Positions 14,183-52,851 of a DNA stretch of 52,986 nucleotides are shown piece by piece. The DNA lies in NCBI GenBank assembly GCA_903913285.1, contig CAIWKO010000027.1, forward strand, positions 1-52,986, in the 5' to 3' direction. The notes beneath the pieces are model-generated. The model saw only the letters and a program-made list of their open reading frames with translations, was not told the DNA's origin and did not search any database. This stretch comes from an uncultured Bacteroidales bacterium. Lineage in GTDB: Bacteria > Bacteroidota > Bacteroidia > Bacteroidales > CAIWKO01. A program made the position numbers and the translations under genes. How positions within the stretch are numbered: position 1 is the first letter of the stretch; every line of letters starts with the position of its first letter.

Positions 14183-14455
14183 ACATCCATACAAGTGTTA
14201 TCAACATCCATTATAATTCAATCGACATCCATTTTAATGTTTTTAACATCCATACAAATGCAAACGACATCCATTACGATGTAATCAACATCCATTTTAA
14301 TGTTATTAACGTCCATACAAGTGCAAACAATATCCATTCTGTTGCTGTTAATATCCATTCAAGTGCTGGCATCATCCATACAAGTGTAGCTTACATCCAT
14401 TATAATGTTAACACCATCCATACAGATGTTAATCACATCCAAATTTATTTTTACG
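14183..14455. repeat. 21-bp tandem array A (13 units)
   Basis: Units start with ACATCCAT or close variants at 14183, 14204, 14225, 14246, 14267, 14288, 14309, 14330, 14351, 14372, 14393, 14414 and 14435: every step is exactly 21 bases. The core is ACATCCATACAAGTG, with the 3' part of the unit varying. It lies between the divergent MFS gene and the unknown gene that starts at 14575. With the two preceding elements it accounts for most of the 13.9-14.57 kb gap; the remaining 120 bases show nothing I can identify. Confidence 0.92.
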
Positions 14456-14574
14456 ATAGTGTAAATTAATAGAACATTCTTTGTATCTTTGTTTATACTT
14501 TCGCTGATGCTCAATGCATCATCGTTTATTTATGTTGTGGTCTTAAAATAGAGTTTAATATAATTCTTCAGGCT

Positions 14575-15489
14575 ATGAACAAATATGAAAAAGCCCGTTT
14601 CCGCGCTTTCCGTCGCCTCGAATCCTTCATGAAACAAATTAATGATGAACTCATGACTGTAGAACTGTATCCCAATCAAAAAGCTGGGTTCGACAATGCC
14701 ATGCACAGACTTCGTAAAGCAATTCAAAAGCAGGCGAAACAAGTTAAGGGCACTACAACAGATAAAAGTGTTCTGAAAACCAACATGATTGAAACCATGC
14801 ATAAATTTACCAATCGTGCTTGCATTCAGGCTTTGGATCTTCAACTCAATAGTATCTATTTTGCACTTAAAAAGCCCGTCACGTATTTCTCCAGAGGTAA
14901 AGGTCATGACATAATTGGAAGAGCCACTGCCATCAAGAACATTATGTCCGATAATCTCACTGCTCTGCCGTGCCTTGCCGATGCCGATATTGCCGAAATG
15001 GAATTAGCTATTAAGCAATATTCAAAAATACAACATCGTCCTAAATTCGAAATTGGTCAGAATAAAGTTTTTGGCACCGATCAAATTCCGCTCTGGCTCA
15101 ACAAAACAGGTGAATTTGCCGATAACATCTGCATACTAATCACTTCCTACCTTCCCCACCACTTGGGCATTTGGAATGAACATGCAAAAGTGGGTAAACC
15201 TTTGGGTGTTCACCATGTTTCTCTTGCCATTCATCTGACTGACGAAGTCAATGATCTTCCGCTTATTAGAATAAAATGCACAGTTTTCAATGGTACCGAA
15301 ACCATTATAAAATACAGCTCAAAACGCGGTTGGATCCATTTTCACAGCTTTTATAGTGCAAGTATGGATATTGCCATCGAAGACCCCTACCACGAACCCG
15401 TCTACCTTCAAAACATCTCTGCAGTTGAAAAAAAGACAACCCGCATCAATCTTAAACTTAAGCTTATCGATCCCGAAGCAACCGCCTGA
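14575..15489 (+). CDS. Unknown protein with helical N-terminal half
   Basis: A 304-aa protein I do not recognise. It has no signal peptide or membrane segment. Residues 1 to about 170 are rich in Lys, Arg, Ala and Met and look mainly alpha-helical (EKARFRAFRRLESFMKQIND, FDNAMHRLRKAIQKQAKQVK). A middle part contains the hydrophobic ICILITSYLPHHLGIW. From about 200 onward the pattern alternates like a beta-sandwich (VHHVSLAIHLTD, TRINLKLKLID). Codon use is normal and no partner gene is close. It starts 120 bases after 21-bp array A, the only protein of wholly unknown function directly behind an array in this window. A link between the two is conjecture. I am confident that it is a real gene and have no functional call. 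Confidence 0.8.
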   Translation: MNKYEKARFRAFRRLESFMKQINDELMTVELYPNQKAGFDNAMHRLRKAIQKQAKQVKGTTTDKSVLKTNMIETMHKFTNRACIQALDLQLNSIYFALKKPVTYFSRGKGHDIIGRATAIKNIMSDNLTALPCLADADIAEMELAIKQYSKIQHRPKFEIGQNKVFGTDQIPLWLNKTGEFADNICILITSYLPHHLGIWNEHAKVGKPLGVHHVSLAIHLTDEVNDLPLIRIKCTVFNGTETIIKYSSKRGWIHFHSFYSASMDIAIEDPYHEPVYLQNISAVEKKTTRINLKLKLIDPEATA

Positions 15490-15672
15490 CAATGTCCGTT
15501 TTTTGCTATCCCAATACAACTATCCATTCAACCTATAGCTCCCGACTTCGGTCCCAGTACTTTTAACTTTTACTTAAAATACTTCGATTTATTTTTCCAT
15601 TCTTTTCCCAATTATAAAGCAATTTTCGGCGTTTATTAAGGACTTTTATTCACCAACTAAAACCGATATACT

Positions 15673-17109
15673 ATGAAAAAAACTTTACACTTTTCTGTAA
15701 CGATAGTGATGCTGATGATGGCTGCCATCGGGTTTCCTTCATTGGTTCATGCACAATGGAGCGCACGGGTGAACCTTTCGCCCCATGCAGTGAATGCCGG
15801 TTTGAACGAAAGCATGGGATCGTGTATAGGTGTGAGCGGCGATACGGTGCATGTGGTTTGGTGCGACCAGCGCAGTGGCACCCGAACGGTTATCTATTAC
15901 ATTCGTTCAACAGATGCGGGTCTCACCTGGAACACACCCATTGCCATCACCGACACCAACGGCAATGCATGGAATCCCGCTATAGCTGTTAACGGACCCA
16001 ACATACATGTTGTGTGGAGAACCGTGGTAGGAACCACCCGCTCGTCGCACTACAGACGCTCGTTGGATGCAGGCAACAACTGGCAACCTAACATCCTGCT
16101 CGACAGCGCCGTGGCCGACTGGCCTGCAGTGACCGTTTCGGGCAACTATGTTTATGTGGTCAACGACATACTTACAGCATCGTCGCCCTACAACACCGAA
16201 ATATTTTTCCTGAGATCGACCGATAACGGCGCAACCTGGAGTGCTCACCAGCAGGTTACATTCAGTGTGGGCCGTTCGGAAGACGAAGCCATAGCAGCTC
16301 AGGGTCCTGACATTTACATGGCATGGAACGATAACCGCAACGGAACCATGCAGATTTTCTACAAACATTCGCACGATCATGGTACCACCTGGGATGCCGA
16401 TGTGCTGATAAACAGCGAACCTTCGTACGGAACGATGGTAAATGTTGACGGAGCCTTTGTAGATATCCCATCTACCGGTGCACCATCGGGACATTACCAA
16501 ACGCATTTAAATCAATCGGCCGATACAGGCAACACCTGGGGTGCCGATCATAACCTGACCAACGATGCTGCCAATACCTATTATTATCCCTACATGGTGC
16601 GCGACGGTTCGGATCTGCATCTCACTTATGTGAAATCGGGCGTGGGCGGACAATATCTGCATTCGGGCGACGGGGGTACCACATGGGATGCTCCTTTGAG
16701 TACGGGCTTCAGCGGCATAACACCTTTTGTTGCATACAACCAATGCGTGGTGCATATCATCATGCCCGACTCGGGCCATATAAATTATATACGCAACCCA
16801 ACCGGAAACCACGGAACACATTGTCCGTTGTATACCGGCATCAAAGACCAACCGGAAAAAGGGTTTGCCGTTTCTGTTTATCCTAATCCTTTCGGCACAC
16901 AAACTACCTTTGAGATCGATTCACCCGAAACATCTGAAAACTGCGAACTGAGAATTTTGGATATTATGGGCAGAGAAGTAATAAACCTAAACTTCGGGAA
17001 CAATACCAGGATTATATTCGATCGCGGAAACCTGAACAGCGGGATCTATTTATACAGCATAGTGCAAAGCCGGACAATAGTTGCCACCGGAAAGATGATG
17101 GTAGAATAA
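15673..17109 (+). CDS. T9SS-secreted BNR/Asp-box repeat protein
   Basis: A 478-aa secreted protein with an N-terminal signal peptide ending at VHAQ. The body carries six Asp-box motifs of the S-x-D-x-G-x-T-W type: STDAGLTW, SLDAGNNW, STDNGATW, SHDHGTTW, SADTGNTW and SGDGGTTW. These indicate a sialidase-like beta-propeller. Residues from about 400 form a type A T9SS sorting domain (FAVSVYPNPFGTQTTFEI, then LNSGIYLYSI and a terminal KMMVE). Asp-boxes are structural, and no catalytic sialidase residues (FRIP Arg motif) are visible, so enzymatic activity should not be assumed. The region is more GC-rich than its neighbours. Confidence 0.92.
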   Translation: MKKTLHFSVTIVMLMMAAIGFPSLVHAQWSARVNLSPHAVNAGLNESMGSCIGVSGDTVHVVWCDQRSGTRTVIYYIRSTDAGLTWNTPIAITDTNGNAWNPAIAVNGPNIHVVWRTVVGTTRSSHYRRSLDAGNNWQPNILLDSAVADWPAVTVSGNYVYVVNDILTASSPYNTEIFFLRSTDNGATWSAHQQVTFSVGRSEDEAIAAQGPDIYMAWNDNRNGTMQIFYKHSHDHGTTWDADVLINSEPSYGTMVNVDGAFVDIPSTGAPSGHYQTHLNQSADTGNTWGADHNLTNDAANTYYYPYMVRDGSDLHLTYVKSGVGGQYLHSGDGGTTWDAPLSTGFSGITPFVAYNQCVVHIIMPDSGHINYIRNPTGNHGTHCPLYTGIKDQPEKGFAVSVYPNPFGTQTTFEIDSPETSENCELRILDIMGREVINLNFGNNTRIIFDRGNLNSGIYLYSIVQSRTIVATGKMMVE

Positions 17110-17145
17110 ACATGAGTTTATTTGATAGAAATATTAAATAAAAAA

Positions 17146-17535
17146 ATGAAAAAGAAAACAAACTGGAAACGCATCCTGTATATTATTGGCGTTGTTGCTT
17201 TGATCGTTGGTGTTCTCGATCCTTTAGAAGGCTCGGTTATGCTGACAGCAGGCAGTATACTCATTGTAATTTCAACATTTCTGATCCACGACCGCCACAG
17301 GAAAATATTTCTGGCATCCACTATCATGATCGTAACAGGAGTGTTTTTTCTGTTCTATTTTTCTTCACTGGGTGGTTTTGGCGGCACATCCACACTATCG
17401 TGGTGGTGGGGCACACTCATACTTCCCTATCCGATAGGATGGTTAATGTCGGTAGTAATTTTATTGGTCAGGGCTTTTACCAAAACAAAATCAAACGCTA
17501 CAATAGAGAAAGAAAACCTTAAGAACAAAGTTTAG
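17146..17535 (+). CDS. Small four-helix membrane protein, unknown function
   Basis: A 129-aa protein starting at the ATG in MKKKTNWKRILYIIG; a TTG eight codons upstream is less likely. Hydrophobic segments at about residues 9-27, 30-47, 54-74 and 84-107 suggest four membrane helices, followed by a charged Lys-rich tail. A Gly/Ser/Trp loop (FGGTSTLSWWWG) precedes the last helix. It ends 4 bases into the convergent START gene (stops at 17535 and 17532). I do not recognise the family. Confidence 0.7.
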   Translation: MKKKTNWKRILYIIGVVALIVGVLDPLEGSVMLTAGSILIVISTFLIHDRHRKIFLASTIMIVTGVFFLFYFSSLGGFGGTSTLSWWWGTLILPYPIGWLMSVVILLVRAFTKTKSNATIEKENLKNKV

Positions 17536-18182
17536 AGTTCCTTCACGTTCTTCATCACAGTCTTTGGGTAAAGCGGCGACTCGACTATGCTGCGCATGTG
17601 TTGTAAATTAATAAAAGGAGTTTCGGTTATATAGGCGTTCACAAGCACCGCGGGCACATAGCCGCCAATATCGCAGTGCTGCTGAAATACCACTTTGGTC
17701 ACCCCTTTTGCCACCGGAGTTAACTGCCACGAACCAATCAACTTAGGGATCCTTATCCTGCCTTCTTTTTCGGGCAAATAATCTTTCATGCCGGTGATGC
17801 TGACAGTGATAACTTTAGTAGCTGTATCCTGAGTAGCTTTATAAAACGTATAGGCATCCCGGTCGCTCACGGGCCAGGGAGCATCCACCACATAATAGGT
17901 ATAGCCCGAACTTGAACCCACTCTTTTAATAAGTTGTGAATATTCGCAATTGTGCATCCATTTTGGATATGCCGAAACACTGTCGATCAATTTTAATATT
18001 CCTGAAAGGTTGGATTTGATGGTAACCTCTCCGCGAAACTCGAGCACGTTAGACCCTTCAAAAGTGCGGGTAGAAACTTTGATACCGTCCTTGTCGACCT
18101 TAAGATCCCATTTCTGGCCGTAAGAAACAGCTGAGAAAAGCAGCGCGGCAAAAAGAAATATAAAAAGTTTCCGACAGTTCAT
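17532..18182 (-). CDS. Exported START-domain lipid-binding-like protein
   Basis: A 216-aa protein with a signal peptide (KLFIFLFAALLFSAVSYG). The mature part follows the START/Bet v1-like pattern: WDLKVDKDGIKVSTRTFEGS, YPKWMHNCEYSQLIKR, and YTYYVVDAPWPVSDRDAYTF, whose WPVSDRD is a hallmark of START proteins related to StAR. These domains enclose a hydrophobic ligand; here the ligand is unknown and the location is probably periplasmic. It stands alone, with a TACTTTTG -7-like element at 18222-18229 on the minus strand. Confidence 0.85.
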   Translation of the reverse strand: MNCRKLFIFLFAALLFSAVSYGQKWDLKVDKDGIKVSTRTFEGSNVLEFRGEVTIKSNLSGILKLIDSVSAYPKWMHNCEYSQLIKRVGSSSGYTYYVVDAPWPVSDRDAYTFYKATQDTATKVITVSITGMKDYLPEKEGRIRIPKLIGSWQLTPVAKGVTKVVFQQHCDIGGYVPAVLVNAYITETPFINLQHMRSIVESPLYPKTVMKNVKEL

Positions 18183-18351
18183 TAGTTGTTAACGATAATT
18201 AAATAAAAAACTAATTAAGTACAAAAGTACTAAAATTATTTCCAATAATTGTACTAAGTTTTCTAATTTCGCACTAAAATTATTAAGCTTGCAACTTATT
18301 TTTAACTAAATGGCTGTTTATCTATATAATGCCATCACTTAGCCAAACTTT

Positions 18352-19284
18352 ATGAAGATCGTCACTACTGCAATTCTATTAGCAATCACTCTGCTGCTGG
18401 TTCCCGTGTTCACTTATTTTTTCGGCACTGCTCCCGGCCCTGCCGAATGGAAAGCCATACACGAACTTATTTGGATAGTTGCCATTGCTGTTGCATATTC
18501 ATTTATAGTTGGAGAACTCACGGGCAACAACAGTCAGGTTGATAAACTGTGGAGTATTATACCTATTGTTTACACCTGGGTGGTTGCCGACGCAGGCCAT
18601 TATGCTCCCCGCTTGGTTTTAATGAGCGTGCTGGTATCGCTTTGGGGCATACGCCTCACCACCAATTTCGCTATGAAAGGAGCTTATCAGAGGCGTTTTT
18701 GGGCGGGCGAAGAAGACTACCGCTGGCAGGTGCTGCGCCAAAGACCGGAATTTAGTTCTCGTTGGAAATGGACACTCTTTAACCTGTTTTTCATTTGCGG
18801 ATATCAGAATATCATCATTGTGCTTTTTGTATTACCTACCATTATGGCTCTTCAGAATAATACAGTACCTCTGGGTATTTTCGATTATGTTGCAGCCGCA
18901 TTAATGTTGTTCTTTATACTGTTCGAGATGATAGCCGATATCCAGCAATGGAACTTTCAAAGCCTGAAATGGGCAGCCATAAAAAAAAGAGAAGAACCCA
19001 AAGGCGATTACAAAAAGGGATTTCTCGATAAAGGTTTATGGGCATTAAGCCGCCATCCCAACTATTTTGCCGAACAAGCTATCTGGATCAGTTTTTATTT
19101 GTTCAGCATTGCAGCCTGCGGACAATGGTTCAACTGGAGCATAGCTGGTTGTTTGCTGTTGGTGGTATTGTTTCAGGGCAGTTCGAGCTTCAGCGAAGAA
19201 ATAAGCAAAGGAAAATACCCCGCGTATGCTGAATATCAGAAAAAAGTGCCCCGTTTTCTACCCTTTGGCCGCAAACTGAAATAG
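18352..19284 (+). CDS. DUF1295 membrane protein, steroid 5-alpha-reductase-like
   Basis: A 310-aa integral membrane protein with about seven hydrophobic segments. The C-terminal signature LSRHPNYFAEQAIWISFYLF, and the acidic EEISKGKYPAYAEYQKKVPR near the end, match the DUF1295 / 3-oxo-5-alpha-steroid 4-dehydrogenase and isoprenylcysteine methyltransferase-like superfamily, in which this part binds the cofactor. The conserved DKLWSIIPIVYTW loop is also typical. The substrate is not known. It lies divergent from the START-domain gene, which makes a lipid-related theme plausible but unproven. Confidence 0.88.
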   Translation: MKIVTTAILLAITLLLVPVFTYFFGTAPGPAEWKAIHELIWIVAIAVAYSFIVGELTGNNSQVDKLWSIIPIVYTWVVADAGHYAPRLVLMSVLVSLWGIRLTTNFAMKGAYQRRFWAGEEDYRWQVLRQRPEFSSRWKWTLFNLFFICGYQNIIIVLFVLPTIMALQNNTVPLGIFDYVAAALMLFFILFEMIADIQQWNFQSLKWAAIKKREEPKGDYKKGFLDKGLWALSRHPNYFAEQAIWISFYLFSIAACGQWFNWSIAGCLLLVVLFQGSSSFSEEISKGKYPAYAEYQKKVPRFLPFGRKLK

Positions 19285-19377
19285 AAGTATCCGCTTTTTC
19301 AGGATCAAATTAAGTACTTCAGGCATCATAGTTCACATTTGCACATTTTATGTAATTTAGCGCTGCAAAAAAGCAGT

Positions 19378-22293
19378 ATGCAACAAAAACTCGGCAAATT
19401 AAAAGAACAACTTTCAGGCGAATTGCTCAGCGATGAAGTGACGCGAACGCTATACGCCACCGATGCATCGATCTATTTCGAAAAGCCGTTGGCTGTAGCT
19501 ATTCCCCGAACAGAAGCCGACATCGTGCTATTGATAAAATTTGCTACGCTCAATAACATTCCGCTAATTCCGCGAGCGGCAGGCACTTCGCTTGCAGGAC
19601 AAGCCACCGGAAAAGGAATTATTGTTGATATTTCGAAACATTTCGGCAGCATCATTGAATTTAACCGGGAAGAACAATGGGTGCGGGTTCAGCCGGGTGT
19701 GGTACGCGACGAACTCAACAAATTTCTGGAACCACATGGATTTATGTTTTGCCCAGAAACTTCCACATCGAACCGTTGCATGATAGGCGGCATGATCGGA
19801 AACAACTCGTGCGGAGAACATTCACTTATATATGGTAGTACCCGCGATCATCTTATTTCGTTGCGCTGTTTCCTGACCGATGGAAGTGAAGTAGTTTTTG
19901 GGAAAATTAGCAAAGATGAGTTTCAGGAAAAATGTAAAGGCGACACACTCGAAAACCGTATCTACCAAAAAATAAACGAAACCCTGAGCATGCAGGGTAT
20001 GGCAGAAGAAATTGACGCCAACTACCCTGAATCTGCTATAAAACGCAGAAACAATGGCTACGCTCTCGATGCTTTGATGCAAAGCCAAGTTTTTAATACC
20101 AAAAGTAACGAGGCGTTCAACTTGGCAAAGTTTATCTGCGGATCGGAAGGAACGCTGGCATTTATTGCAGAAGCAAAACTGAATGTGATCCCCATCCCTG
20201 CTGATAAAACTTTGTTTGTTTGTGCACATTTCAATACACTGGAAGAAGCCTTGCAGGCCAATTTGATCGCTCTCCGGCATAAGCCGACAGCCGTTGAACT
20301 GATCGATAAAACCATATTGGAAGGTGCTGAGCGGAACTTGGGTCAGCAGCAAAATCGATTCTTTATACAAGGGAAACCCGAAGCCATACTCATCATCGAA
20401 CTGGCTCAGTCGAACGATGAGTTGTTAATGAAAGATGCAGCGGCTTTAATTGAAGACCTAAAAAGCAGTCAACTGGGATATCATTATCCTGTCATCATCG
20501 GAAAAGATATGGCAAAAGTGCGCAGCCTGCGCAAAGCCGGTTTGGGAATATTGACAGGAGTTACAACCGTAAAAAAGCCGCATAGTTTTGTGGAAGATAC
20601 TGCAGTAGCTCCCGATAAAATGCCGCAATACATTGCCGAATTCCGTGCCATGCTCAAACGCTATGATACAGATTGTGCTTTCTACGGACACATTTCCACC
20701 GGAGAACTGCATTTCAAGCCCATTCTGGGTCTCAGAACCTGCGAAGGTGTTGAACTGTTGAAAACAATTGCCCGGGAGACGGCTATTTTGGTAAAAAAAT
20801 ATCATGGCTCATTGAGTGGCGAACATGGCGACGGGCGTCTTCGTGCTGAATTCATCCCGCTGATGCTGGGCGAAAAGATATACCACAGTCTTGAGGAAAT
20901 CAAAAACACTTTCGACCCTCATCATATATTTAACCCGGGAAAAATTATTGACGCTCCCTGCATGGCCACGGACCTTCGCGAACAACGTCTTGTGAGTGAA
21001 CCTGCCATAAGCACCTATTTTGATTATTCTGAAACCAATGGATTTCTGAGGGCCATTGAACGCTGCAACGGTTCGGCCGATTGCCGCAAAAGTCATGCAA
21101 TAGGCGGAGTGATGTGCCCCAGTTTTATGGTAACCCACGACGAAAACACCACCACCCGTGCCCGTGCCAACCTGCTGCGTGAAATACTTTATGATAAGAC
21201 CAACCGCAATGCTTTTGCAAACAAAGAACTTTACACCATTCTCGACCTATGTCTGATGTGCAAGGGATGCAAGGTGGAATGTCCTTCGGGGATAGACATG
21301 GCACGCTATAAAACCGAGTTCCTGCAACAATATTACGACGAACATCTGATGCCGCTGCGCACATGGCTAATTGCAAATATAACCCGTATCAACCGTTTGG
21401 GAATGATGATGCCCACAGTGTTCAATTATTTTGCGCGAAACCCTTTCTTTTCATCCGTACTTAAAAAAACTTTGGGATTTGCACCCAAACGTAGCATACC
21501 CCAATTAGGAAAATCTACTTTGAAGAAATGGGCACGACCATTTTTAAAACAAATGAACGGAAACGGCAAAACCATGTATTTCTTTGCCGATGAGTTTACC
21601 AACTATAATGATGTTGAGATAGGCAAGAAAGCCATATTTCTGCTTACTCAACTTGGATACACCATAAAAATAGCCCCTGTTTATGATAGTGGTCGTACAT
21701 ATTTCTCGAAAGGTTTGGTAAAAAAGGCAAAACTCATTGCCAATAACAATATCAGAAAGCTTAGCGACATTATTAAAGAACAATCACCTTTAATAGGTAT
21801 TGAACCTTCAGCCATTTTAGGTTTTCGCGACGAATATCCCGACATTGTTAATGATGAATTGCGACAAACAGCCAAAAATATTGCCAGATATGCATTAACT
21901 TTAGAAGAATTTCTGGCTGCAGAGTTTCAGCAGGGAAAGATAAATGCAGCACTTTTCACATCAGAACCTGCAAAAATAAAACTTCACGGGCATTGTCATC
22001 AAAAAGCCTTATCCACTACCCTGCCCACCCGACAAATACTTGAAATCCCTTCGAACTATAGTGTGGATGAAATACCCAGCGGTTGTTGCGGAATGGCAGG
22101 AAGCTTTGGCTTTGAAAAAGAACATTACGATATTTCGATGCAAGTCGGTGAACTGGTTTTATTTCCTGAGATCAGAAAAGAAAATTACGATATTATTGCT
22201 GCACCGGGCACCAGTTGCCGTCAGCAAATAAAAGACGGAACGGGAAAAATAGCCCTGCATCCGATCGAAGTACTTTTTAATGCATTGGTCTGA
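19378..22293 (+). CDS. FAD/Fe-S D-lactate (or glycolate) dehydrogenase, GlcD-GlcF fusion type
   Basis: A 971-aa enzyme that oxidises a 2-hydroxyacid, most likely D-lactate, and passes electrons through iron-sulfur centres toward quinone. I start at MQQKLGKLKE; the open frame begins 13 codons earlier. Residues about 35-210 form the FAD_binding_4 domain (PRAAGTSLAGQATGKGI), followed by an FAD-oxidase C-terminal domain with SLSGEHGDGRLRAEF. The Fe-S section has C563, C569 and C580 (CNGSADC...GVMCPS) and the classical C625-x2-C628-x2-C631-x3-C635. The tail is a CCG-type domain (GHCHQKAL and SGCCGMAGSFG). Fusion of GlcD-like and GlcF-like parts is common in this family. No lactate permease is adjacent. 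Confidence 0.93.
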   Translation: MQQKLGKLKEQLSGELLSDEVTRTLYATDASIYFEKPLAVAIPRTEADIVLLIKFATLNNIPLIPRAAGTSLAGQATGKGIIVDISKHFGSIIEFNREEQWVRVQPGVVRDELNKFLEPHGFMFCPETSTSNRCMIGGMIGNNSCGEHSLIYGSTRDHLISLRCFLTDGSEVVFGKISKDEFQEKCKGDTLENRIYQKINETLSMQGMAEEIDANYPESAIKRRNNGYALDALMQSQVFNTKSNEAFNLAKFICGSEGTLAFIAEAKLNVIPIPADKTLFVCAHFNTLEEALQANLIALRHKPTAVELIDKTILEGAERNLGQQQNRFFIQGKPEAILIIELAQSNDELLMKDAAALIEDLKSSQLGYHYPVIIGKDMAKVRSLRKAGLGILTGVTTVKKPHSFVEDTAVAPDKMPQYIAEFRAMLKRYDTDCAFYGHISTGELHFKPILGLRTCEGVELLKTIARETAILVKKYHGSLSGEHGDGRLRAEFIPLMLGEKIYHSLEEIKNTFDPHHIFNPGKIIDAPCMATDLREQRLVSEPAISTYFDYSETNGFLRAIERCNGSADCRKSHAIGGVMCPSFMVTHDENTTTRARANLLREILYDKTNRNAFANKELYTILDLCLMCKGCKVECPSGIDMARYKTEFLQQYYDEHLMPLRTWLIANITRINRLGMMMPTVFNYFARNPFFSSVLKKTLGFAPKRSIPQLGKSTLKKWARPFLKQMNGNGKTMYFFADEFTNYNDVEIGKKAIFLLTQLGYTIKIAPVYDSGRTYFSKGLVKKAKLIANNNIRKLSDIIKEQSPLIGIEPSAILGFRDEYPDIVNDELRQTAKNIARYALTLEEFLAAEFQQGKINAALFTSEPAKIKLHGHCHQKALSTTLPTRQILEIPSNYSVDEIPSGCCGMAGSFGFEKEHYDISMQVGELVLFPEIRKENYDIIAAPGTSCRQQIKDGTGKIALHPIEVLFNALV

Positions 22294-22362
22294 AAAAAAC
22301 TTCATTTTATCACAATAAAATTATTTTGGCAAACGTTCATATCTTAACCAAAACCCAAAGAT

Positions 22363-30557: not shown

Positions 30558-30659
30558 CGCTCAAAGAGCGGAGCATATCCCTGAGTCAGAACATAGCTTC
30601 GCCTATTCAGCAGAGCATATATCTGAGTCAGAACATAGCCTCGCTCAACGAGCGAAACC
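30558..30659. repeat. 42-bp tandem repeat with CGCTC/GAGCG hairpins
   Basis: Units start at 30558, 30600 and 30642 (partial), exactly 42 bases apart. The shared core is GAGCATAT..CTGAGTCAGAACATAGC. The outer copies contain CGCTCAAAGAGCG and TCGCTCAACGAGCGA, short hairpins. It lies directly after the stop of the phospholipase-like gene and may serve as its 3' end. Confidence 0.8.
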
Positions 30660-41750: not shown

Positions 41751-41752
41751 AG

Positions 41753-42109: not shown

Positions 42110-42368
42110 AAAGAATAATTTAGGTATTGCGGTATAAAATTAAGCAAAGTTTGATTAATCTTTTAAAAATAAGACAAGTTCTTTAACTGATATTAATCAA
42201 TTCCTAAAAAAAACTGCATCAGTAATGGAAATACGAATTAAGATCCAGACATTTATCACAAATTGCGAATAGTCCGAATTTGATTAATTGAAATAAATTA
42301 TATTTTCAAAGCTTGATTAGCATAAAATATTAGCCGTAATAAATGCTTAAACACAGATATAAATGGGC

Positions 42369-42640
42369 GCGCAGACCATTGACGGTGACGCGAAGACCAT
42401 TGACAGTAACGCGAAGATGTTTGCGACTGACGCTTTGTCAGGTGCGTCTGCCACTATGTCAGGTGAGAGTGGCGTATAGTCATATTTCAAGTGACGCTTT
42501 TATGAGTGAGGGTGACGCGAAGACCATTGACGGTGACGCGAAGATGTTTGCGACTGACGCTTTGTCAGGTGAGACTGACACAATGTCAGTTGAGAGTGAC
42601 GCTTTGATGTGTGAGAGTGACGCTTTTTTTTTTGCAAGTG
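42369..42640. repeat. 21-bp tandem array D (about 13 units, one 1-base slip)
   Basis: GACGC-type words recur at 21-base steps from 42388 to 42451, then at 42494, 42515, 42536, 42557, 42578, 42599 and 42620. The two halves are out of phase by one base, so a single-base insertion lies near 42472-42494. Unit types alternate between GACGCGAAGACCATTGACGG and GACGCTTTGTCAGGTGAGA, giving a higher-order pattern. It lies between the divergent lipoprotein and barrel genes. The 250 bases before it (42110-42360) are AT-rich with nothing identifiable. Confidence 0.9.
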
Positions 42641-42769
42641 AATTGCGAAAAAAATTGACAAGAGAATTAATGTTTTTGTATGTCGTTTAATTATCTGATG
42701 CTTGATCTATAAATGCAGTTGTTTGAATTTGCAGGGTGGTGCCTACGAAAATTGATTGGTTTCGTTAAT

Positions 42770-43310
42770 TTTTTCTATTATAATTTAACTCCCACGGTGT
42801 TTTTCTCAGGCTTGTTAATAACTACATCAGATAGTTAATGCCCTACGGGCAAACCGTAATTCTAGGCATATTATTCTATTGGTATTTAAGCCCTACGGGC
42901 TATTTGCCAAAACACTAATAGTAAAAACATCATGAGATTAGATTATTGATTTATAAGTCCTTCGGGCTATCAAAATAATCGTTCAAATGGCGTATTATTG
43001 GTTTTGGTATTTCTTTCTACCATAATTTCACTCCCACGGTGTTTTTATCAGGATTGTTAAATGACCAAATTATGATAGTTAATGCCCTACGGGCAAACCA
43101 TAATTTGGGGTATATTATTATATTGACATTAAAGACCTTCGGGCTATAAGAGATTGTTAATGCCCTACGGGCAAAGCATAATTCGGGCATATTATTCTAT
43201 TATTATTTAAGCCCTACGGGCTATTAGCTAAAACCCTGATAGTAAAAACATCATTAGATTAGATTAGATTATTATATTGATTTATAAGCGATGCGGACTA
43301 TTAATGCTAT
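42770..43310. repeat. Cluster of CCCTACGGGC palindromes in two degenerate 230-300-bp copies
   Basis: Seven short hairpins are present: TGCCCTACGGGCA at 42839, 43083 and 43161; AGCCCTACGGGCT at 42889 and 43210; AGTCCTTCGGGCT near 42956; and AGACCTTCGGGCT near 43133. Shared flanks such as CTCCCACGGTGTTTTT, GATAGTTAATG, CATATTATTCTATT and AGTAAAAACATCAT show two related copies, starting at about 42770 and about 43000. This looks like a REP/BIME-type extragenic palindromic cluster. The last 100 bases before 43413 show nothing further. Confidence 0.82.
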
Positions 43311-44832: not shown

Positions 44833-44901
44833 TTCATCTAATTGATGAGTTTTATGAGTTATTAATAATGATATTTATAATTTAAACCAATGGAGGTAAT
44901 T

Positions 44902-46137
44902 ATGGCAAAAAAAAGTTTTAACACTAAAGCAATTCATGATGGAAAACTCAATTGTAATCAGGAATCAATGTCAGTTCCAATCTTTCAAACGGTAGCCTAT
45001 AAATATTCTGATGCAAAGGAAGCAGCAGAAATATTTGCTGCTAAAAAACAAGGTTATACCTACGGTCGTTGGGATAATCCAACTGTAAATGTATTTGAAC
45101 AACGTATGGCCTCACTGGAAAATACAGAAGCAGCAGTTGCAACTTCATCGGGAATGTCGGCTATTTTTCTTTTATGTCATCAAATGCTAACACATGGTGA
45201 TGAAATAGTTTCTTCGAACCGGGTTTATGGTGGCACCTTTTCATTATTTGAAGTAGGTTTAAAAAAAATGGGGATAAAAGTCAACTGGATCACTTCACCA
45301 GAAAAAATAAAGACATGGGAAGCTGCAATAACTAAAAAAACTAAATTCTTGTTTGTAGAAAGCCCATCAAATCCTTCATTATTTATTGCCGATATACCTG
45401 CACTCGCCGAACTTGCCAAAGCTTATAAAATTCCATTAGTTGTTGATAACACCATAGCTACACCAGCATTGCAACAACCCACAGAACTTGGTGCAGACAT
45501 AGTGGTTCACTCTACAACAAAATACATTTGCGGAAATGCTTCAAGCCTTGGTGGTATAATATGCGGGTCAAATTCTGTTATTGAAGAAGGTATCCGAATG
45601 GGCCCGTTACGTTATCTCGGCCCTTCTATGGCTCCTTTTAATGCATGGTTAAACCTAAACGGACTGGAAACACTTGCTATACGCATGGAACGACATTGCA
45701 GTAATGCACTTGCTGTGGCACAGTATCTGGAAAAACATCCAAAAGTACTATCTGTGAACTATCCCGGGCTCAGTACGAATCCTTACCATAAAATGTTGAA
45801 AGTAAACAAAATTAAAGGCGCCAGCTCATTAATGTCGTTTGTGATAAAAGGAAGTTACGACGATGCCGTTAATTTTATCGATTCGCTTGAAACAATTATT
45901 CACGCAACGCATTTAGGGACCTGCAAGACCATTGTTACTCATCCTGCTTCCACTACCCATTCGTCGCTGGGTGAAAAAGAATTATTAAAAGCAGGTATTC
46001 CTCCATCTCTTGTACGGTTTTCAATCGGGTTGGAAGATGAAAAAGATATTATTGCTGATATTGAAAATGCTCTTTCGAAATCGGGAAAAAACAATAAATC
46101 GAAAAAAACAGACAACTATTTTCCTTCAGCTATTTGA
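44902..46137 (+). CDS. Methionine gamma-lyase / O-acetylhomoserine sulfhydrylase-type PLP enzyme
   Basis: A 411-aa Cys/Met-metabolism PLP enzyme. GGAGG directly precedes the ATG at 44902 (MAKKSFNTKAIHDG), so I reject the ATG four codons earlier. Motifs include YTYGRWDNPTVNVFEQRMAS, SSGMSAIF, the aspartate in PLVVDNTIATP and the PLP lysine in VHSTTKYICGNASSLGGII. The C-terminal THPASTTHSSL is shared by gamma-lyases and sulfhydrylases, so the precise reaction (methionine cleavage, homocysteine synthesis or cystathionine cleavage) is unresolved. The tail ends in a Lys-rich stretch. Confidence 0.88.
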   Translation: MAKKSFNTKAIHDGKLNCNQESMSVPIFQTVAYKYSDAKEAAEIFAAKKQGYTYGRWDNPTVNVFEQRMASLENTEAAVATSSGMSAIFLLCHQMLTHGDEIVSSNRVYGGTFSLFEVGLKKMGIKVNWITSPEKIKTWEAAITKKTKFLFVESPSNPSLFIADIPALAELAKAYKIPLVVDNTIATPALQQPTELGADIVVHSTTKYICGNASSLGGIICGSNSVIEEGIRMGPLRYLGPSMAPFNAWLNLNGLETLAIRMERHCSNALAVAQYLEKHPKVLSVNYPGLSTNPYHKMLKVNKIKGASSLMSFVIKGSYDDAVNFIDSLETIIHATHLGTCKTIVTHPASTTHSSLGEKELLKAGIPPSLVRFSIGLEDEKDIIADIENALSKSGKNNKSKKTDNYFPSAI

Positions 46138-46396
46138 CATTTCTGACCCGTTTCTTTTTTTCTGACTGATTCGTTCAATAAAGTTCATAAAGAATATTTT
46201 TAAAAAAAAACTTTATTATTCACTACTATGTTATAATCTTGCTTTAGAGTATCTTCTACATTAAACATCCTGATTTTCTATTATTTTTCAGACCAAATAA
46301 TTTTAATACAAAATAATTCTTGCATTATTAATCTGTAGCAATTATATTTGTCGTTCGATAAATAATCTAAGCAATTATTTTCATAAAAAATAAGGC

Positions 46397-49300
46397 GTGA
46401 GCGATACTAAAAATAAAAGAGGAAATAAATCAGCAATTCTTCATCAAAAGATAAATGACTTGCTGAAAAAGCGTTCAACAAAAAAGGACACCCAAAAGCC
46501 TGATCCGGAGGCTATACAACTTATCCGCGAATTGGAAACACATCTGCAAGAGCTGGAAATGCAGAATGATAGGCTGGTTAAAGATATGGTTGAGCGCAAG
46601 CAAATCGGAAAAAAAGTACATCTTGACGATACTCATATTCAACGTTATTTGAATTCGGATATTATCGGTGTTTTTATTGCAATACCTGAAGGTAAGATCA
46701 TTGAAGCAAATGATTACTATCTGGATATTATTGGCTACACACGTGCGGAATTTCTAACTCAAAAAGTTGACTGGCGTTCCTTCACTCCTCCCGAATGGTT
46801 GCCGGCCGATGAAAATGCTTTGCGTGAATTGAGCGAAACAGGTACTTGTAAACCATACGAAAAAGAATATATAAAAAGAGACGGAAACAGGGTTTCGGTA
46901 TTGCTTAACGATGTTATGCTTCCCGGGCCTGAAGAACATATTGTTGGGTTTGCAATTGATATTACACGACGCAAGCAAACTGAAAAGGCATTGCAGGAAA
47001 GCAATGAACGCTATCGGAATTTAATTGAATTGGCTGTAGACGGTGTGTTACTTGGAACTAATGAAGGTTTTATTATTGATGCAAATTCATGTATTTGCAA
47101 AATGCTTGGAAAAAACCGAAAGGAACTCATTGGTAAGCATATCAGCGATTCGATTTTTGCTTCCGAAAGTTTGAAAAAGACTCCTCTTGATTTCGAACAG
47201 TTGAGGAAAGGTGAAACAGTGGTAAATGAACGATTTATCAGGCATAAGGATGGTTCGGAAATTACGGTCGAAATGCGAACCAAGATGATGCCCGACGGCA
47301 CCTACCAATCTATTTACCGCGACATAACCAAACGTAAGCACCAGGAAGAAGAATTAAAACAACTCAATGAAGCACTGGAAGAACGAGTTCGACAACGTAC
47401 GGCAGAATTAATAAAATCGAATGAAACCATTACGCAGATAAGCCAAAATTATGAAACGTTTTTTAACACGATCGATGATTTTCTTTTTGTGCTTGACGAA
47501 CAGGGGAAAATTATTCACACAAATACAACGGTTAATAATCGTTTAGGTTATTCAAGTGAAGAACTATCCGGGAATTCTGTTCTTATGGTTCACCCCTTCG
47601 ACCGCCAAGATGAAGTAAATAAGATCGTTGGTGAGATGCTGAAGGGAGAGATTGACTATTGCCCGATCCCGTTAATTACGAAATCAGGTGTACAAATCCC
47701 GGTCGAAACCAGAGTTTCGTATGGGTTTTGGAATGATAAACCTGTGATATTTGGAGTCAGTAAGGATATTTCAAAGCTTCAATTATCGGAAGAAAAGTTC
47801 AAGAAAGTATTTTATCTCAATCCTTCTGCATGTAGTTTAACAGACCTGATCACTAAAGAATATATTGAAATTAACGAAGCCTTTAATAATCTGCTTGGAT
47901 TTAATAAAAATGAGGTTATTGGAAAAACATCCAGAGAACTTGGAATATTATCACCTAAAAAAATAAAAGAGATCAAGAGTACTGAAGATAAGAATGGAAG
48001 TGTTAAGAATATTGAAACTGAATTAATAACTAAGAATGGAGATATCAGGCATGTACTGATGTCGTGCGAAAATATTTATTTGCAAGATAGAAAATACCGC
48101 TTTACAGTTGTTCACGATACTACTGAACGAAAAAGATCTGAAAAAGAATTGAAAGAAAGTGAACTCCGTTATCGAACACTTTTTAAAACCTCTCCTATTG
48201 GAATCATAGTTTCGGACGAAAACGGGACTATTTTGGATGCTAATGAAGAAATTGAAAAAACTACGAAATTTTCTGTTGATGAACTGATAGGAAGTAATGT
48301 TCAGAAATTAAGCCCACCTAGTGATGTTGATACAGCTAAAAATAATATTCAACGGATACTTGCCGGGGAAATATTGGAACAGGAAGTCGTAAATGTAAGA
48401 AAAGATGGAGAGCATCGTATAATTCAATTACGCGAAACTGCTATCACTTTACCAAGCGGAAAAAAAGGTATACTTTCTATTTCTAAAGATATTACAGAAC
48501 ATAAGAATACAGAAAAGATGATGATGGATATTATTGAGAAAAATCCAATGTCGATTCAAATTCTCGATACAGAAGGATTTACGCTTATGTTAAACCCTGC
48601 ACATACCAAACTTTTCGGCTCGGTTCCACCCTCAACCTACTCGGTTTTCAAGGATCCATTGTTGATCAAGCAAGGACTAAGAAGTTATTTGGAACGTGTT
48701 AAAAAAGGTGAAGTAGTTCATTTACCGGATACTTTTTATAATGCCCATGATCTTTATCCTGATTATCCAGATATGGTTGTTTGGCTAAAATCAATAATAT
48801 TCCCCTTACTGAATAATGAGGGCAAGCCTGAACGTTTTGTAGTTATGCACGAAGATATCACCGAGCAAAAGATAACCCAAGACGCATTAAAAGAAAGTGA
48901 AGAAAAATACCGATTACTTTTTGATAATGCTTCGCAATGCATATTAGTAGCACAGGACGATTATTTTCAAATTGCGAATCCAAAAGCAAGTGAGTTGTTG
49001 GGATTTACGAATGAAGAACTACTTTCCAAACCTTATTTGGAGTTTATCTATCCCGACGACAGAGACATGGTTAGTTTAAATTACCGAAACCGATTAAAGG
49101 GGAACTATGTTCATCAAAGTTATCATTTCAGGGTCCTGCGAAAAGATAAAACCATCCGTTGGGTTGAAATTAGTGCGGTTTTGTTTAAATGGAAAGAAAA
49201 AAATGCCACACTTAACTTTTTATCCGATATTACACAACGTAAGCATGCTCAGGAAGCATTATTAGAAAGTGAAATGAAATATCGTACCATCTTCGAAAAT

Positions 49301-50692
49301 GTTCAAGATATTTTTTATAAGATCGATATTAATGGTAAGGTATTAGAAATAAGTCCATCCATTAAAAACTATTCAGGATTTAATGACAAAAATATCATAG
49401 GCACATCCGTTTTCGACCTTTATAATAACCCAAAAGACAGAATCACATTTCTGAGTAAATTAAAGAAGAAAAAAGAACTCCGGGATTTTGAGTTAAAATT
49501 GAAAAACAAAACAGGTGAACTAAAATATGTATCTGTTAATGCTCGTTTAGTTTTTGATAAAAACGGAAAACCTACTCATATTGACGGTGCAATTAGGGAT
49601 ATTAATGAGCGTCGACTGGTAGAAGAAGCGCTGAAAGAAAGTCAGGCAAAATATCAGTTCATTGTTGAAAACAGCGACGACCTGCTCTGGACCATGAACG
49701 GCGATCTAACGTTCGACTATGTATCACCTTCCGTATTCAAGTTTTTAGGTTATACTCAGGAAGAACACAGAAAACAAACGGTTTACGATTATCTCACACC
49801 CGAATCGGCCAAAATGGTGATCCATGAATTCACCATCGGTATGATGCATCAGCAACGAAAAGAATTTGATCAGATACGAAACCGGGCAGACCTTGATCTG
49901 GAGTTTATCCGCAAAGATAAAACACGTGGATATGCACGAACCACCATGATCATGGTACGCGATGAGAATCACCAGTTGGTGAAGATCCGAGGTTTTACAA
50001 CTGATACCACCATTCAAAAAAAAGCAGAAACAGATCTGAAAAACTCACTCGAACAACTGCATTTGTTGTCTGAACATGTTGAAAAAGTGAGAGAAGAAGA
50101 ACGAATTGCCATTTCGCGTGAACTGCACGACGAACTGGGTCAGGCACTAACAGCCATTAAGATCGATCTGGGACTGATAAAACAAAAAACATCCGACAAA
50201 GAAGTAGTTGACAGACTCAGTAAAGTTTCTGTTATGTTGAGTGATACCATAAAAAATGTACAGAAACTCACATCTCAGCTTCGTCCGCTAATGATAACAG
50301 ATCTGGGACTGGAAGCTACCACTGAATGGTATGCTGACGAATTTGAACGCCGAAACAACATTCCGGTATATCTGGATCTAAAAATTAATAAATCCTTACC
50401 TGATGATGTTTCTTTATCGATTTTCCGTATCATACAGGAATCTCTAACGAATGTTTCAAGGCATTCTAACGCAACACAGATAGGCATTCAGCTAAAACAA
50501 AATAAAGAAGCTATAAGCCTAAAGATCACAGATAACGGAATCGGAATAAGCGAAAAAGCCTTAACTTCAAATAAATCTTTTGGAATAATAGGCATGAAAG
50601 AACGGGCAAACTCAATGGGCGGAACTTTAGATGTGTATTGTGAAAATAAAAAGGGAACAGTTGTTAAGCTTGTTGTACCGAATCGGAAATAG
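46397..50692 (+). CDS. Soluble multi-PAS histidine kinase (nine PAS domains, NarX/DegS class)
   Basis: A 1431-aa sensor kinase with GTG start and no membrane segment, so it senses inside the cell. About nine PAS/PAC units follow one another: residues about 75-195, 196-315, 345-460, 463-580, 585-705, 707-830, 832-955, 956-1078 and 1080-1210. Many begin with an ALKESEEKYR-type linker. The dimerisation domain is HisKA_3 with phosphoacceptor His1244 (SRELHDELGQALTAI). The ATPase domain has IIQESLTNVSRHSNA, DNGIGI and FGIIGMKERA. It lies 143 bases upstream of a NarL-type regulator, its likely partner. No heme- or flavin-binding PAS motif stands out, so the signal is unknown. Confidence 0.93.
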   Translation: MSDTKNKRGNKSAILHQKINDLLKKRSTKKDTQKPDPEAIQLIRELETHLQELEMQNDRLVKDMVERKQIGKKVHLDDTHIQRYLNSDIIGVFIAIPEGKIIEANDYYLDIIGYTRAEFLTQKVDWRSFTPPEWLPADENALRELSETGTCKPYEKEYIKRDGNRVSVLLNDVMLPGPEEHIVGFAIDITRRKQTEKALQESNERYRNLIELAVDGVLLGTNEGFIIDANSCICKMLGKNRKELIGKHISDSIFASESLKKTPLDFEQLRKGETVVNERFIRHKDGSEITVEMRTKMMPDGTYQSIYRDITKRKHQEEELKQLNEALEERVRQRTAELIKSNETITQISQNYETFFNTIDDFLFVLDEQGKIIHTNTTVNNRLGYSSEELSGNSVLMVHPFDRQDEVNKIVGEMLKGEIDYCPIPLITKSGVQIPVETRVSYGFWNDKPVIFGVSKDISKLQLSEEKFKKVFYLNPSACSLTDLITKEYIEINEAFNNLLGFNKNEVIGKTSRELGILSPKKIKEIKSTEDKNGSVKNIETELITKNGDIRHVLMSCENIYLQDRKYRFTVVHDTTERKRSEKELKESELRYRTLFKTSPIGIIVSDENGTILDANEEIEKTTKFSVDELIGSNVQKLSPPSDVDTAKNNIQRILAGEILEQEVVNVRKDGEHRIIQLRETAITLPSGKKGILSISKDITEHKNTEKMMMDIIEKNPMSIQILDTEGFTLMLNPAHTKLFGSVPPSTYSVFKDPLLIKQGLRSYLERVKKGEVVHLPDTFYNAHDLYPDYPDMVVWLKSIIFPLLNNEGKPERFVVMHEDITEQKITQDALKESEEKYRLLFDNASQCILVAQDDYFQIANPKASELLGFTNEELLSKPYLEFIYPDDRDMVSLNYRNRLKGNYVHQSYHFRVLRKDKTIRWVEISAVLFKWKEKNATLNFLSDITQRKHAQEALLESEMKYRTIFENVQDIFYKIDINGKVLEISPSIKNYSGFNDKNIIGTSVFDLYNNPKDRITFLSKLKKKKELRDFELKLKNKTGELKYVSVNARLVFDKNGKPTHIDGAIRDINERRLVEEALKESQAKYQFIVENSDDLLWTMNGDLTFDYVSPSVFKFLGYTQEEHRKQTVYDYLTPESAKMVIHEFTIGMMHQQRKEFDQIRNRADLDLEFIRKDKTRGYARTTMIMVRDENHQLVKIRGFTTDTTIQKKAETDLKNSLEQLHLLSEHVEKVREEERIAISRELHDELGQALTAIKIDLGLIKQKTSDKEVVDRLSKVSVMLSDTIKNVQKLTSQLRPLMITDLGLEATTEWYADEFERRNNIPVYLDLKINKSLPDDVSLSIFRIIQESLTNVSRHSNATQIGIQLKQNKEAISLKITDNGIGISEKALTSNKSFGIIGMKERANSMGGTLDVYCENKKGTVVKLVVPNRK

Positions 50693-50835
50693 GTGTTAGG
50701 TGTTAGGTGTTAGGGATTTGTGTGTTTGTAAAGTATGAAGCCGGAAGTTATGGCAAATGGCTTTTCAAATCGCTAAAAAATGACAATAAAAGAATGTCCA
50801 TAAATAATTACTAATGCAAGTTAAATTTAAAGCCC

Positions 50836-51465
50836 ATGAAAATTCTTATTTGCGATGATCATAAAATTGTACGCGACGGTTTGCGTCAGATATTAAGTCA
50901 GCTCGACGATGTAGAATTGATCGGCGAGGCAGCCAGTGGTTCGGAAGCGCTGGAAATTTTAAAGGAAGTTTTTTTCAACATTCTTTTGCTCGATATTACA
51001 ATGCCCGGTATTAGCGGCCTGGAAGTACTTGAGATTGTTAGAGAAAGACATCCGCTATTGCACGTATTAATGCTTAGTATGCACACTCAGGAACAATATG
51101 CCCTGCGGGCACTCAAATTAGGGGCTTCAGGATATTTAACAAAAGATACAGCCTCGGAGGAACTTTTGCTCGCGGTGAGGAAAGTGATGAAGGATGGAAA
51201 GTATATTTCCGAAGCACTTGCCGACAGTATCGCGCAAAAATTTGATAACGATAATAAAAAACAAAAGCATGAACTACTTTCCGATCGTGAATTTAACGTT
51301 ATGATCAAACTTGCCGAAGGACGATCACTTCAGGAAATAAGTTCGGAGTACTTTGTTTCAAAAAATGCTATCAGCACCTACAGAGCCAGAATTCTGAAAA
51401 AAATGAATCTGACCACTAATAATGAACTCACGAAATATTGCTTTGAAAACAAACTGATTTTATAG
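50836..51465 (+). CDS. NarL/FixJ-type response regulator
   Basis: A 209-aa regulator with an intact receiver: D7/D8 (LICDDHKIVRDGL), phosphoacceptor D53 (LLLDITMPG), S84-type switch residue in LMLSMHTQ and Lys in YLTKD. The LuxR-class helix-turn-helix reads LSDREFNVMIKLAEGRSLQE, then VSKNAISTYRARILKKM. It follows the nine-PAS kinase and is probably phosphorylated by it. A degenerate paralogue lies 397 bases downstream. Confidence 0.93.
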   Translation: MKILICDDHKIVRDGLRQILSQLDDVELIGEAASGSEALEILKEVFFNILLLDITMPGISGLEVLEIVRERHPLLHVLMLSMHTQEQYALRALKLGASGYLTKDTASEELLLAVRKVMKDGKYISEALADSIAQKFDNDNKKQKHELLSDREFNVMIKLAEGRSLQEISSEYFVSKNAISTYRARILKKMNLTTNNELTKYCFENKLIL

Positions 51466-51682
51466 GCTAAAATTATTTGATTTTCGACTTTTAAAATCTT
51501 TCGGTGATAAAACCTTCTGTTTTTTTTTCAACAATTCGGATACTTTATTCCAGGGTAATTTAAAACTATTACCCTACCATCCCAATTTATATATCTAATT
51601 CGTATATTATTAAAAACCATTAAAGCCTCTTCATTAGGCAAACACATGAGTTTTTTAGTATAAATTCTAGAAGCTTGTAGTA

Positions 51683-51740
51683 TTTATACTACAAAACTTT
51701 CGTGTTTATACTACAAAACTTTCGTGTTTATACTACAAAC
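51683..51740. repeat. 22-bp tandem repeat F (2.6 units) with hairpin
   Basis: TTTATACTACAAAACTTTCG starts at 51683, 51705 and 51727 (partial), 22 bases apart. The first copy is preceded by TTGTAGTA, making a TTGTAGTA/TACTACAA hairpin. It lies in the 51466-51862 gap upstream of the regulator paralogue. The rest of the gap is AT-rich with only a TATTTTTG -7-like word near 51760. Confidence 0.8.
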
Positions 51741-51862
51741 TATTTTTTAATTGTATATTATTTTTGCTTTTCAAAAAATCAAATTATTTAAGAATGCCTG
51801 CATTAATATTTTTTTCAGAATCAATTTAGGCAAATAGTAATGGATATTAAAAATTTTGTATT

Positions 51863-52483
51863 ATGAAAATACTAATATGCGAAACCATCGGAGTGTATCG
51901 CGAAAGTTTGAAGAAATCGGCACAACAAATAAATAATATTACTTTTTTCGCTGAAGCAGCAGACGGAAACTTCGCCACCATGCTGGTAAATCAGATCAGT
52001 TTTGATTTGGTGTTGCTCGATTTCTCGATACCGGGTGTGAACAGTATCAAACTATTGAAATTCATCCAAAAAAACAGTCCTTCCACCAAGGTAATAATGA
52101 TGAGCCTTTGTGCTCAAAAACAATTAGCATTAAGAGCCTTGCTTAACGGGGCTTCGGGCTATATTACCAAAGAAATAGATGCCGATGACCTAAAGATTGC
52201 CGTAAATTCAGTTATGGAAGGCCGGAAATATATATCAAAACTTGTGGCCGATAGTTTTGCGCAGCAATTTAACACCAATTATGATTGGCTTCAAAGCAAT
52301 AATTTGTTGCCAAACGAATTTGAAGTATTGATACGCCTCGCAAACGGCAACACGGTGCAGGCCATTGCCAGGGAACTTTTGCTTACGGTAGACAATATTA
52401 ATAATATCAGGCACATGATAGAAAGCAAAATTGCTAATAACAGGAAAAGCATACTGTTAAATGATGTTGCGAATATTGCGTGA
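51863..52483 (+). CDS. Degenerate NarL-type response regulator paralogue
   Basis: A 206-aa protein clearly related to the regulator at 50836: both start MKILIC, share EAADG/EAASG, LLLDF/LLLDI, ALRALLNGASGYITK against ALRALKLGASGYLTK, and GRKYIS against DGKYIS. Phosphoacceptor D53 remains. However, the acidic pair D7-D8 is replaced by E7-T8, so metal-dependent phosphorylation is doubtful. The DNA-binding half (NEFEVLIRLANGNTVQAIAR, then LTVDNINNIRHMIESKI) has lost the usual TVKTH-type recognition helix. It could be a phosphorylation-independent or dimer-partner regulator. The open frame is intact, so it is not a simple pseudogene. Confidence 0.85.
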   Translation: MKILICETIGVYRESLKKSAQQINNITFFAEAADGNFATMLVNQISFDLVLLDFSIPGVNSIKLLKFIQKNSPSTKVIMMSLCAQKQLALRALLNGASGYITKEIDADDLKIAVNSVMEGRKYISKLVADSFAQQFNTNYDWLQSNNLLPNEFEVLIRLANGNTVQAIARELLLTVDNINNIRHMIESKIANNRKSILLNDVANIA

Positions 52484-52557
52484 TATAAAAAAGGCGAAAG
52501 GTGATAAAATATAATAAAGTAAGAATGAATTATGCAAATACATATTTGAAATGCAAC

Positions 52558-52851
52558 ATTGCAGACTTGAGTTGTGACATTGCAGAATTGAATTGTGATA
52601 TTGCAGACTTGAGTTGTGACATTGCAGACTTGAATTGTGACATTGCAGACTTGAGTTGCAACATTGCAGACTTGAGTTGTGACATTGCAGACTTGAGTTG
52701 CAACATTGCAGACTTGAGTTGCAACATTGCAGACTTGAGTTGTGATATTGCAGACTTGAGTTGCAACATTGCAGACTTGAGTTGTAACATTGCAGACTTG
52801 AGTTGTAACATTGCAGACTTGAGTTGCAACATTGCAGACTTGTATTGGAGA
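52558..52851. repeat. 21-bp tandem array E (14 units)
   Basis: ATTGCAGACTTGAGTTG recurs from 52558 to 52831 in steps of exactly 21 bases, with units ending TGTGAC, TGCAAC or TGTAAC. Both strands are open through the array, giving seven-residue repeats (IADLSCD on plus, MLQLKSA on minus). There is no good start context and no non-repeat domain, so I treat it as non-coding. The rest of the 52484-52986 stretch shows only the short hairpin near 52933. Confidence 0.93.

Follow-up and report, generated by a model that had tools for sequence, protein, structure and literature searches.

The stretch of DNA analysed here (the window, 52,986 nt) is contig 27 of the 70 contigs in the 4.0-Mb genome of an uncultured Bacteroidales bacterium, referred to below as G000, and our subject is a set of tandem arrays of direct repeats with a period at or near 21 bp that it carries. 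We located the arrays with Tandem Repeats Finder (TRF) and a gapless lag scan (Table 1). The original prediction, made from the letters of the window alone, had described intergenic 21-bp arrays without visible relationship to one another, and both methods agree that such arrays are present where it had placed them. Twenty first-order Markov shuffles of the window produced no arrays at all; the arrays are confirmed as real and non-random.

Table 1. Tandem repeats of the 21-bp class and related repeats in the window
Start	End	Strand	Feature	Located by
14174	14441	.	21-bp array, ~13 degenerate units, 42/63-bp higher-order structure	TRF + lag scan
23569	23783	.	21-bp array, ~10 units, convergent gap	TRF + lag scan
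30567	30644	.	weak 42-bp repeat, two copies	
40618	40728	.	21-bp array, 5.3 units, convergent gap	TRF + lag scan
42368	42626	.	mosaic 21-bp array, one-base slip, lags 21, 127, 148	
51683	51739	.	22-bp array, 2.6 units, absent from the original prediction	TRF
52555	52842	.	21-bp array, 13.7 units, 91% matches	TRF + lag scan

The arrays differ in regularity and setting. The one starting at 14174 has 12.8 copies of 21 bp with 65% matches by TRF, and its scores climb at 42 and 63. The gap that holds the 23569 array is 274 bp long; the orthologous gap in a genome of the same genus, G001, measures 39 bp and is array-free. A terminator-like inverted repeat is visible directly ahead of the 40618 array. 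The 42368 array consists of related 21-mers in a mosaic and is covered by a 115-aa open reading frame (ORF, 42343-42690) that is doubtful as a real gene. It escaped our main lag detector because its best single lag is 127 (6 x 21 + 1), and here the one-base slip noticed earlier among the units can indeed be seen. The sixth array, thought to have 42-base units and to begin near 30558, is present as a repeat of merely about two copies.

Our comparison covers 870 of the 3996 kb of G000 (22%) and samples from three further genomes of the genus, G001 (396 kb), G002 (371 kb) and G003 (368 kb). All stretches were picked by convenience (first contigs plus contigs named in hits) and not randomly, and the G000 count omits the 42369 array. 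By the lag scan, periods of 20-22 or 41-43 bp account for 42 of the 59 tandem arrays in G000, 38 of 54 in G002 and 40 of 47 in G003, and for none of the 18 in G001. The 120 arrays of this kind divide into 81 with a period of 21, 18 of 42, six of 41, six of 43, five of 20 and four of 22. In other words, the sharp period distribution proposed as a check is found by the lag scan over this fraction of the genome; the step is not always exactly 21 bp, as the arrays at 20, 22, 41 and 43 show. TRF, which is more permissive, gave in the three array-rich genomes pooled 85 peak rows at 21, 31 at 42, 16 at 63, six at 84, ten at 20 and four at 22. Among other periods it gave 30 rows at 14, 22 at 18, 21 at 7, two at 31 and none at 52-53, those at 7 and 14 belonging mostly to a separate heptamer class that is present in G001 too. 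The median array length is 238 bp and the density reaches about 100 per Mb. Eight of 91 sampled contig ends have an array within 60 bp, compared with 2.0 expected, which suggests that assemblies tend to break at arrays and that our counts and lengths are probably lower bounds. Beyond the genus, stretches totalling 318 kb from 15 order-level genomes (selected by us out of 60 drawn) contained four arrays and 29 further order-level loci (100 kb) contained two, none of them with periods of 20-22 or 41-43.

The constancy of length is not accompanied by constancy of sequence. In the three genomes 112 arrays have three or more units, and grouping by shared 11-mers distributes them over 101 families, 91 of these single-member, so that the arrays are indeed unrelated to one another and not copies of one family. 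No k-mer of 4-7 exceeded the shuffle maximum in the pooled arrays of the three genomes, and none of 4-6 did so in any of these genomes taken separately, in agreement with the earlier argument against a shared transcription-factor site. Single k-mers rose above their own expectation only (pooled, AAAGTT 10 versus 3.0 and CGGAA 14 versus 4.8; in G002, GCATA 8 versus 1.9, below the shuffle maximum). In G000, hairpins or inverted repeats are not enriched in 26 arrays of 20-22 bp (mean mid-p 0.50), eight units of 41-43 bp lean toward hairpins (mean mid-p 0.26), and 24 units show no global dyad symmetry (mean 5.33 versus 5.15). Strand skew of the units was not found either, and 70 units gave no 7-bp inner period (shift-7 z -1.4). 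The units, which mismatch at about 18% within an array (TRF), abut head to tail and lack the unique spacers of CRISPR arrays. The 12 consensus units whose length is exactly 42 bp were compared with themselves at a shift of 21. Seven of them clearly repeat internally (24-38 of 42 positions match), so that the 42-bp unit would usually, perhaps always, be a dimer of 21; the remaining five do not.

Direct repeats about two helical turns apart are also the layout of plasmid iterons, all of which carry one shared initiator-binding sequence. It is therefore conceivable that our arrays are iteron-like scaffolds, on which cooperative protein monomers sit on one helix face every two turns and each array has its own or a degenerate site. 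Arrays of 10-16 units do resemble binding platforms. However, the arrays differ from iterons precisely in that no common sequence stands out above shuffles (k = 4-7 pooled, 4-6 per genome), and units diverge strongly at the three shared sites discussed below; we consider such a scaffold improbable.

Nearly all arrays of the first sample (98 of 101) lie outside called ORFs, a proportion that is partly a matter of construction, as ORFs shorter than 1500 bp that fall largely within arrays are skipped by the ORF caller. Assigned to gaps by gene orientation, which was possible for 93 of 120, the arrays reach densities of 0.54 (tandem), 0.72 (divergent) and 0.68 (convergent) per kb of intergenic sequence outside arrays, and these near-equal densities imply little preference for promoters or terminators. 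Because 21 bp equal seven codons, the arrays might be small proteins with 7-residue repeats, and their frames are often open. Yet variation in phase with codons reached p<0.05 in just three of 62 arrays (mean p 0.55), frames are open no more often than in dinucleotide shuffles (4.24 versus 4.19), and periods of 20, 22, 41 and 43 break the frame. Coding is thus rejected as a general account, as the original prediction had supposed, and as an explanation of the whole set it seems to us very improbable. The array at L061:16377-16632, conserved in G002, reads as a hydrophobic heptad repeat (IVVLGVA) in which one codon-like position varies (p 0.007), and it is possibly a rare coding case; L169:7670-7858 and L170:13923-14114 are entered together with it.

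The arrays might alternatively be transcribed as regulatory repeat RNAs. This idea is discussed in a survey of bacterial satellites by Subirana and Messeguer (PMC8161180), who report that 52-nt repeats of Bacillus coagulans are transcribed. The lack of hairpin enrichment and strand asymmetry, the turnover of the units and the absence of Rfam matches in the window at gathering scores all count against it, and we judge it quite unlikely.

The four genomes are unequally related. By reciprocal best hits, G002 and G003 group together (median ~93% amino-acid identity, 12-13 pairs; long DNA matches mostly 82 to 94% identical), G000 stands at 73-78% to both of them, and G001 at 63.5-67% to all three others. 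Since G001 is the outlier by identity and is without arrays by the lag scan, the trait was most simply gained within the genus, the alternative being its loss in G001. Several array sites are common to G002 and G003, some with changed units; such partial conservation between close strains is reported in PMC8161180 for the 52-nt class. At three non-coding shared sites the periods are kept (20/20, 21/21 and 21/21), as roughly are the overall array lengths (272/274, 230/252 and 268/317 bp), whereas the units agree at just 12/20, 11/21 and 15/21 positions, respectively. Unit identity at the first two is no better than for shuffled units, and their homology rests on common flanks and array edges. 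Unit divergence at the three sites is thus 29-48%, compared with 10.8% in G002/G003 intergenic DNA (0.076 indels per substitution). For the most part this faster divergence may simply reflect the usual homogenisation of variants that the arrays already contained, given a mismatch level of ~18%. The units have thus turned over quickly at an unchanged step; with so few cases, the constancy of the period is no more than suggestive. Another candidate shared site, L170:7286 / L062:2779, was rejected for lack of unit similarity (8/21). Some arrays sit where gene order or content differs between G002 and G003 (L076:15832-16634, L060:8050-11438), and these may be recombination or insertion hot spots.

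Unrelated units that turn over are also what would be expected of a fixed-step generator, that is, a replication or repair enzyme that extends ~21-bp tandem copies regardless of sequence and leaves the arrays as neutral by-products. Array density roughly proportional to intergenic space and the occurrence of arrays in three of four genomes of the genus fit such an enzyme, and so does the limited drift to 20/22 and 41/43, as if from birth at 21 followed by rare indels. Outside arrays, moreover, there are 33 residual lag-21 pairs compared with a mean of 3.9 per lag, and 12 of the 33 are not heptamer-like, some of these adjoining arrays. However, the residual two-copy excess is small, and a search of the four genomes (completeness 81-97%) for the canonical Ku end-joining protein gave nothing, which makes Ku-dependent fill-in duplication unlikely. 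The generator is a close rival to the reading we prefer below and a serious, if tentative, possibility. It accounts for everything except the placement of the arrays along the chromosome, to which we now turn.

Array sites are spaced more evenly than chance in the sampled DNA, and this is our most unexpected result. Arrays no more than 1.5 kb apart were merged into sites, the 42369 array was added to G000 by hand, and the observed sites were set against simulations that scatter sites at random over these intergenic gaps, each gap being weighted by its length outside arrays. In G000, 30 intervals averaging 15.8 kb have a coefficient of variation (CV) of 0.516 compared with 0.847 in simulations, none of 1000 of which was as even, and 17% of the intervals are under 8 kb instead of 40%. 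This evenness holds under other weightings and merge distances, and without the window one simulation in 1000 was as even. Since the test was prompted by viewing contig C10, the results were also computed without it. In G003, 23 intervals with a mean of 10.7 kb gave a CV of 0.539 versus 0.730 (11-16/1000). When G000 without C10 and G003 were pooled and density-normalised, 41 intervals had a CV of 0.490 versus 0.698 (2/2000, or 5/2000 after removal of one ORF-overlapping array). Arrays of other periods are not evenly placed (n=12, CV 1.095 versus 1.033 simulated). Such evenness is not predicted by a fixed-step generator.

What could hold a length constant and leave the letters free? The B-form helix has 10.5 bp per turn, so that 21 bp, or two turns, is the shortest length that is whole in both base pairs and turns. 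Any small bend of a 21-bp unit would consequently add in one direction across all units of an array; any letters would serve, so that the sequence is free and the period fixed. We modelled this with 200 random dinucleotide bend models, scoring the mean squared coherent bend. Arrays of random units scored 16.1 at period 21, 8.2 at 31, 8.1 at 42, about 8 at 32, about 6 at 52, 53 and 63, about 4 at 41/43, and 0.01-0.33 at 10, 11, 20 and 22 (0.04 at 20, 0.2 at 22). The real 21-bp arrays that were long enough (39) scored 12.2 and their flanks 2.0, and letter shuffling within the unit barely altered the score (17.3 versus 17.1). It is tempting to speculate that these repeats, lineage-specific, mostly non-coding and private to their loci, are held near 21 bp by helix geometry, each array serving, by its bend or by taking up supercoils, as a platform for nucleoid proteins that tolerate varied sequence, with roughly one array per topological domain. 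Bacterial supercoil domains are about 10 kb. From the coherent-bend geometry and from an even spacing near that size we infer both that bending is a selected trait and that the arrays have an architectural role in the chromosome, a reading to which we assign a probability of about 0.4. In its favour we count the even spacing, the period kept at the sister-genome sites and the bend calculation.

A number of observations weigh against helix geometry as the cause. In our models the coherent bend appears as a consequence of the period and as such proves no function. Off-by-one periods (20, 22, 41, 43) occur in 21 of 120 arrays, or, counting only the 112 arrays of three or more units, in nine at 20 or 22 and 11 at 41 or 43. 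At 10.5 bp per turn such arrays would be poorly coherent (three real 20/22 arrays scored 0.49), and those of period 20 and 22 misfit the need for a coherent bend unless the local helical repeat differs. A 10.5-bp phasing of A/T within units is not enriched (W z -1.7, WW z -2.4); an A-minus-T signal reached z +2.3, among 60 values. Array density tracks the length of intergenic DNA and depends little on how the neighbouring genes are oriented. The evenness weakens in G000 without C10 (40/1000), is fragile in G003 (p 0.07-0.45 over alternative settings that include TRF rows and leave out arrays covered by called ORFs) and is not significant in the 12 intervals of G002 alone, while a second pooled statistic, the fraction of short intervals, is weaker as well (68/2000). 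At the three shared sites 24 unit substitutions predict ~2 period changes, and observing none is non-significant. No array site common to G000 and G002/G003 was seen among the few testable ones. Finally, the on/off contrast within the genus is less clean by TRF, in which three of the 27 best rows for G001 have a period of 21; the five period-21 rows listed there in all are weak (1.9-3.5 copies), and at least two are of the heptamer type. The original prediction had named a geometric constraint or a dedicated generating mechanism: a nearly fixed step on unrelated letters stands, and of the two causes geometry seems slightly the more probable.

Constant-size repeats of variable sequence are not novel in bacteria. 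PMC8161180 describes them, the units measuring 20-21 nt in Bacillus and ranging over 20-23 nt across many bacterial groups, notes two helical turns and discusses nucleoid and small-RNA roles; further sources cited for such repeats are PMC6749651 and PMC8625621. The mention of such a survey in the original prediction was right in substance, and 21 is not a new size. The families in PMC8161180 are several per genome, mutually unrelated, species-specific and generally non-coding, and our arrays resemble them in several respects: one or two unit sizes dominate (20-23 nt there, 20-22 and 41-43 bp here), several families of the same length share a genome (101 families in 112 arrays), and the arrays are mostly non-coding. 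The differences lie elsewhere. A characteristic short sequence is reported there for many species, whereas in our genomes almost every array forms a family by itself and no such sequence is found; our arrays reach ~100 per Mb, commonly with 42/63-bp higher-order units, one genome of the same genus is without them, and the sites are evenly spaced. Arrays that evolve fast and arise independently are also known from Borg elements and are virtually absent from the genomes of Borg hosts (PMC9879509), but the repeats of Borgs have perfect, A-rich units in several lengths and lie in ORFs in about half of the cases, whereas ours are imperfect, intergenic and confined to a single length class. Heptamer repeats such as TAACTGA of Beggiatoaceae (PMC4679880) are likewise short intergenic direct repeats, and 21 is 3 x 7, but our 21-mers are without 7-bp inner similarity. 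The phenomenon as such was thus already published by Subirana and Messeguer, and what we add is the on/off contrast within a genus, the turnover and the spacing. Our searches, confined to open-licence papers, turned up no report of even spacing or of a within-genus contrast.

The genus is rich in several classes of repeats. Degenerate 7-bp direct-repeat arrays (CCAAATA, AGAATTC and ACTTTCA types; e.g. L118:8802-8912, L106:3532-3644, L081:15430-15545) occur in the samples of all four genomes, G001 included. A dispersed 18-bp repeat, AGTACTTAAAGTGCCTAA, forms an array at L108:12294-12417, is also found at L184:13827-14064 and L078:1567-1659, and has many matches in G003 and more than ten in G000. 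Dispersed elements of ~190 bp (L104:7134-7333, 7490-7675) recur at more than 20 places in G003 and at some in G000. Within the window, positions 42830-43250 hold a 77-78-bp repeat with CCCTACGGGC cores. Counting both strands, we found 11 copies of the sequence CCCTACGGG in the 870-kb sample of G000 and 0-1 in the samples of the other three genomes.

Bacterial repeats of constant length and free sequence are published yet unexplained. With three array-rich genomes and a fourth showing none, the question of their origin becomes testable by comparison of gene content. The fullest form of the geometric reading, in which chromosome-wide, evenly spaced (~1 per 10-16 kb), sequence-free elements, inheriting no constraint but a step of whole helical turns and read by their periodicity alone, arose in one genus and help to set topological domains, seems to us doubtful and rather unlikely as a whole. 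We know of no earlier lead that places the action of such repeats at the level of supercoil domains, so that, if the even spacing holds genome-wide, it would to our knowledge be the first. It would also imply that selection is able to maintain a DNA element through its period and be blind to the letters that compose it.

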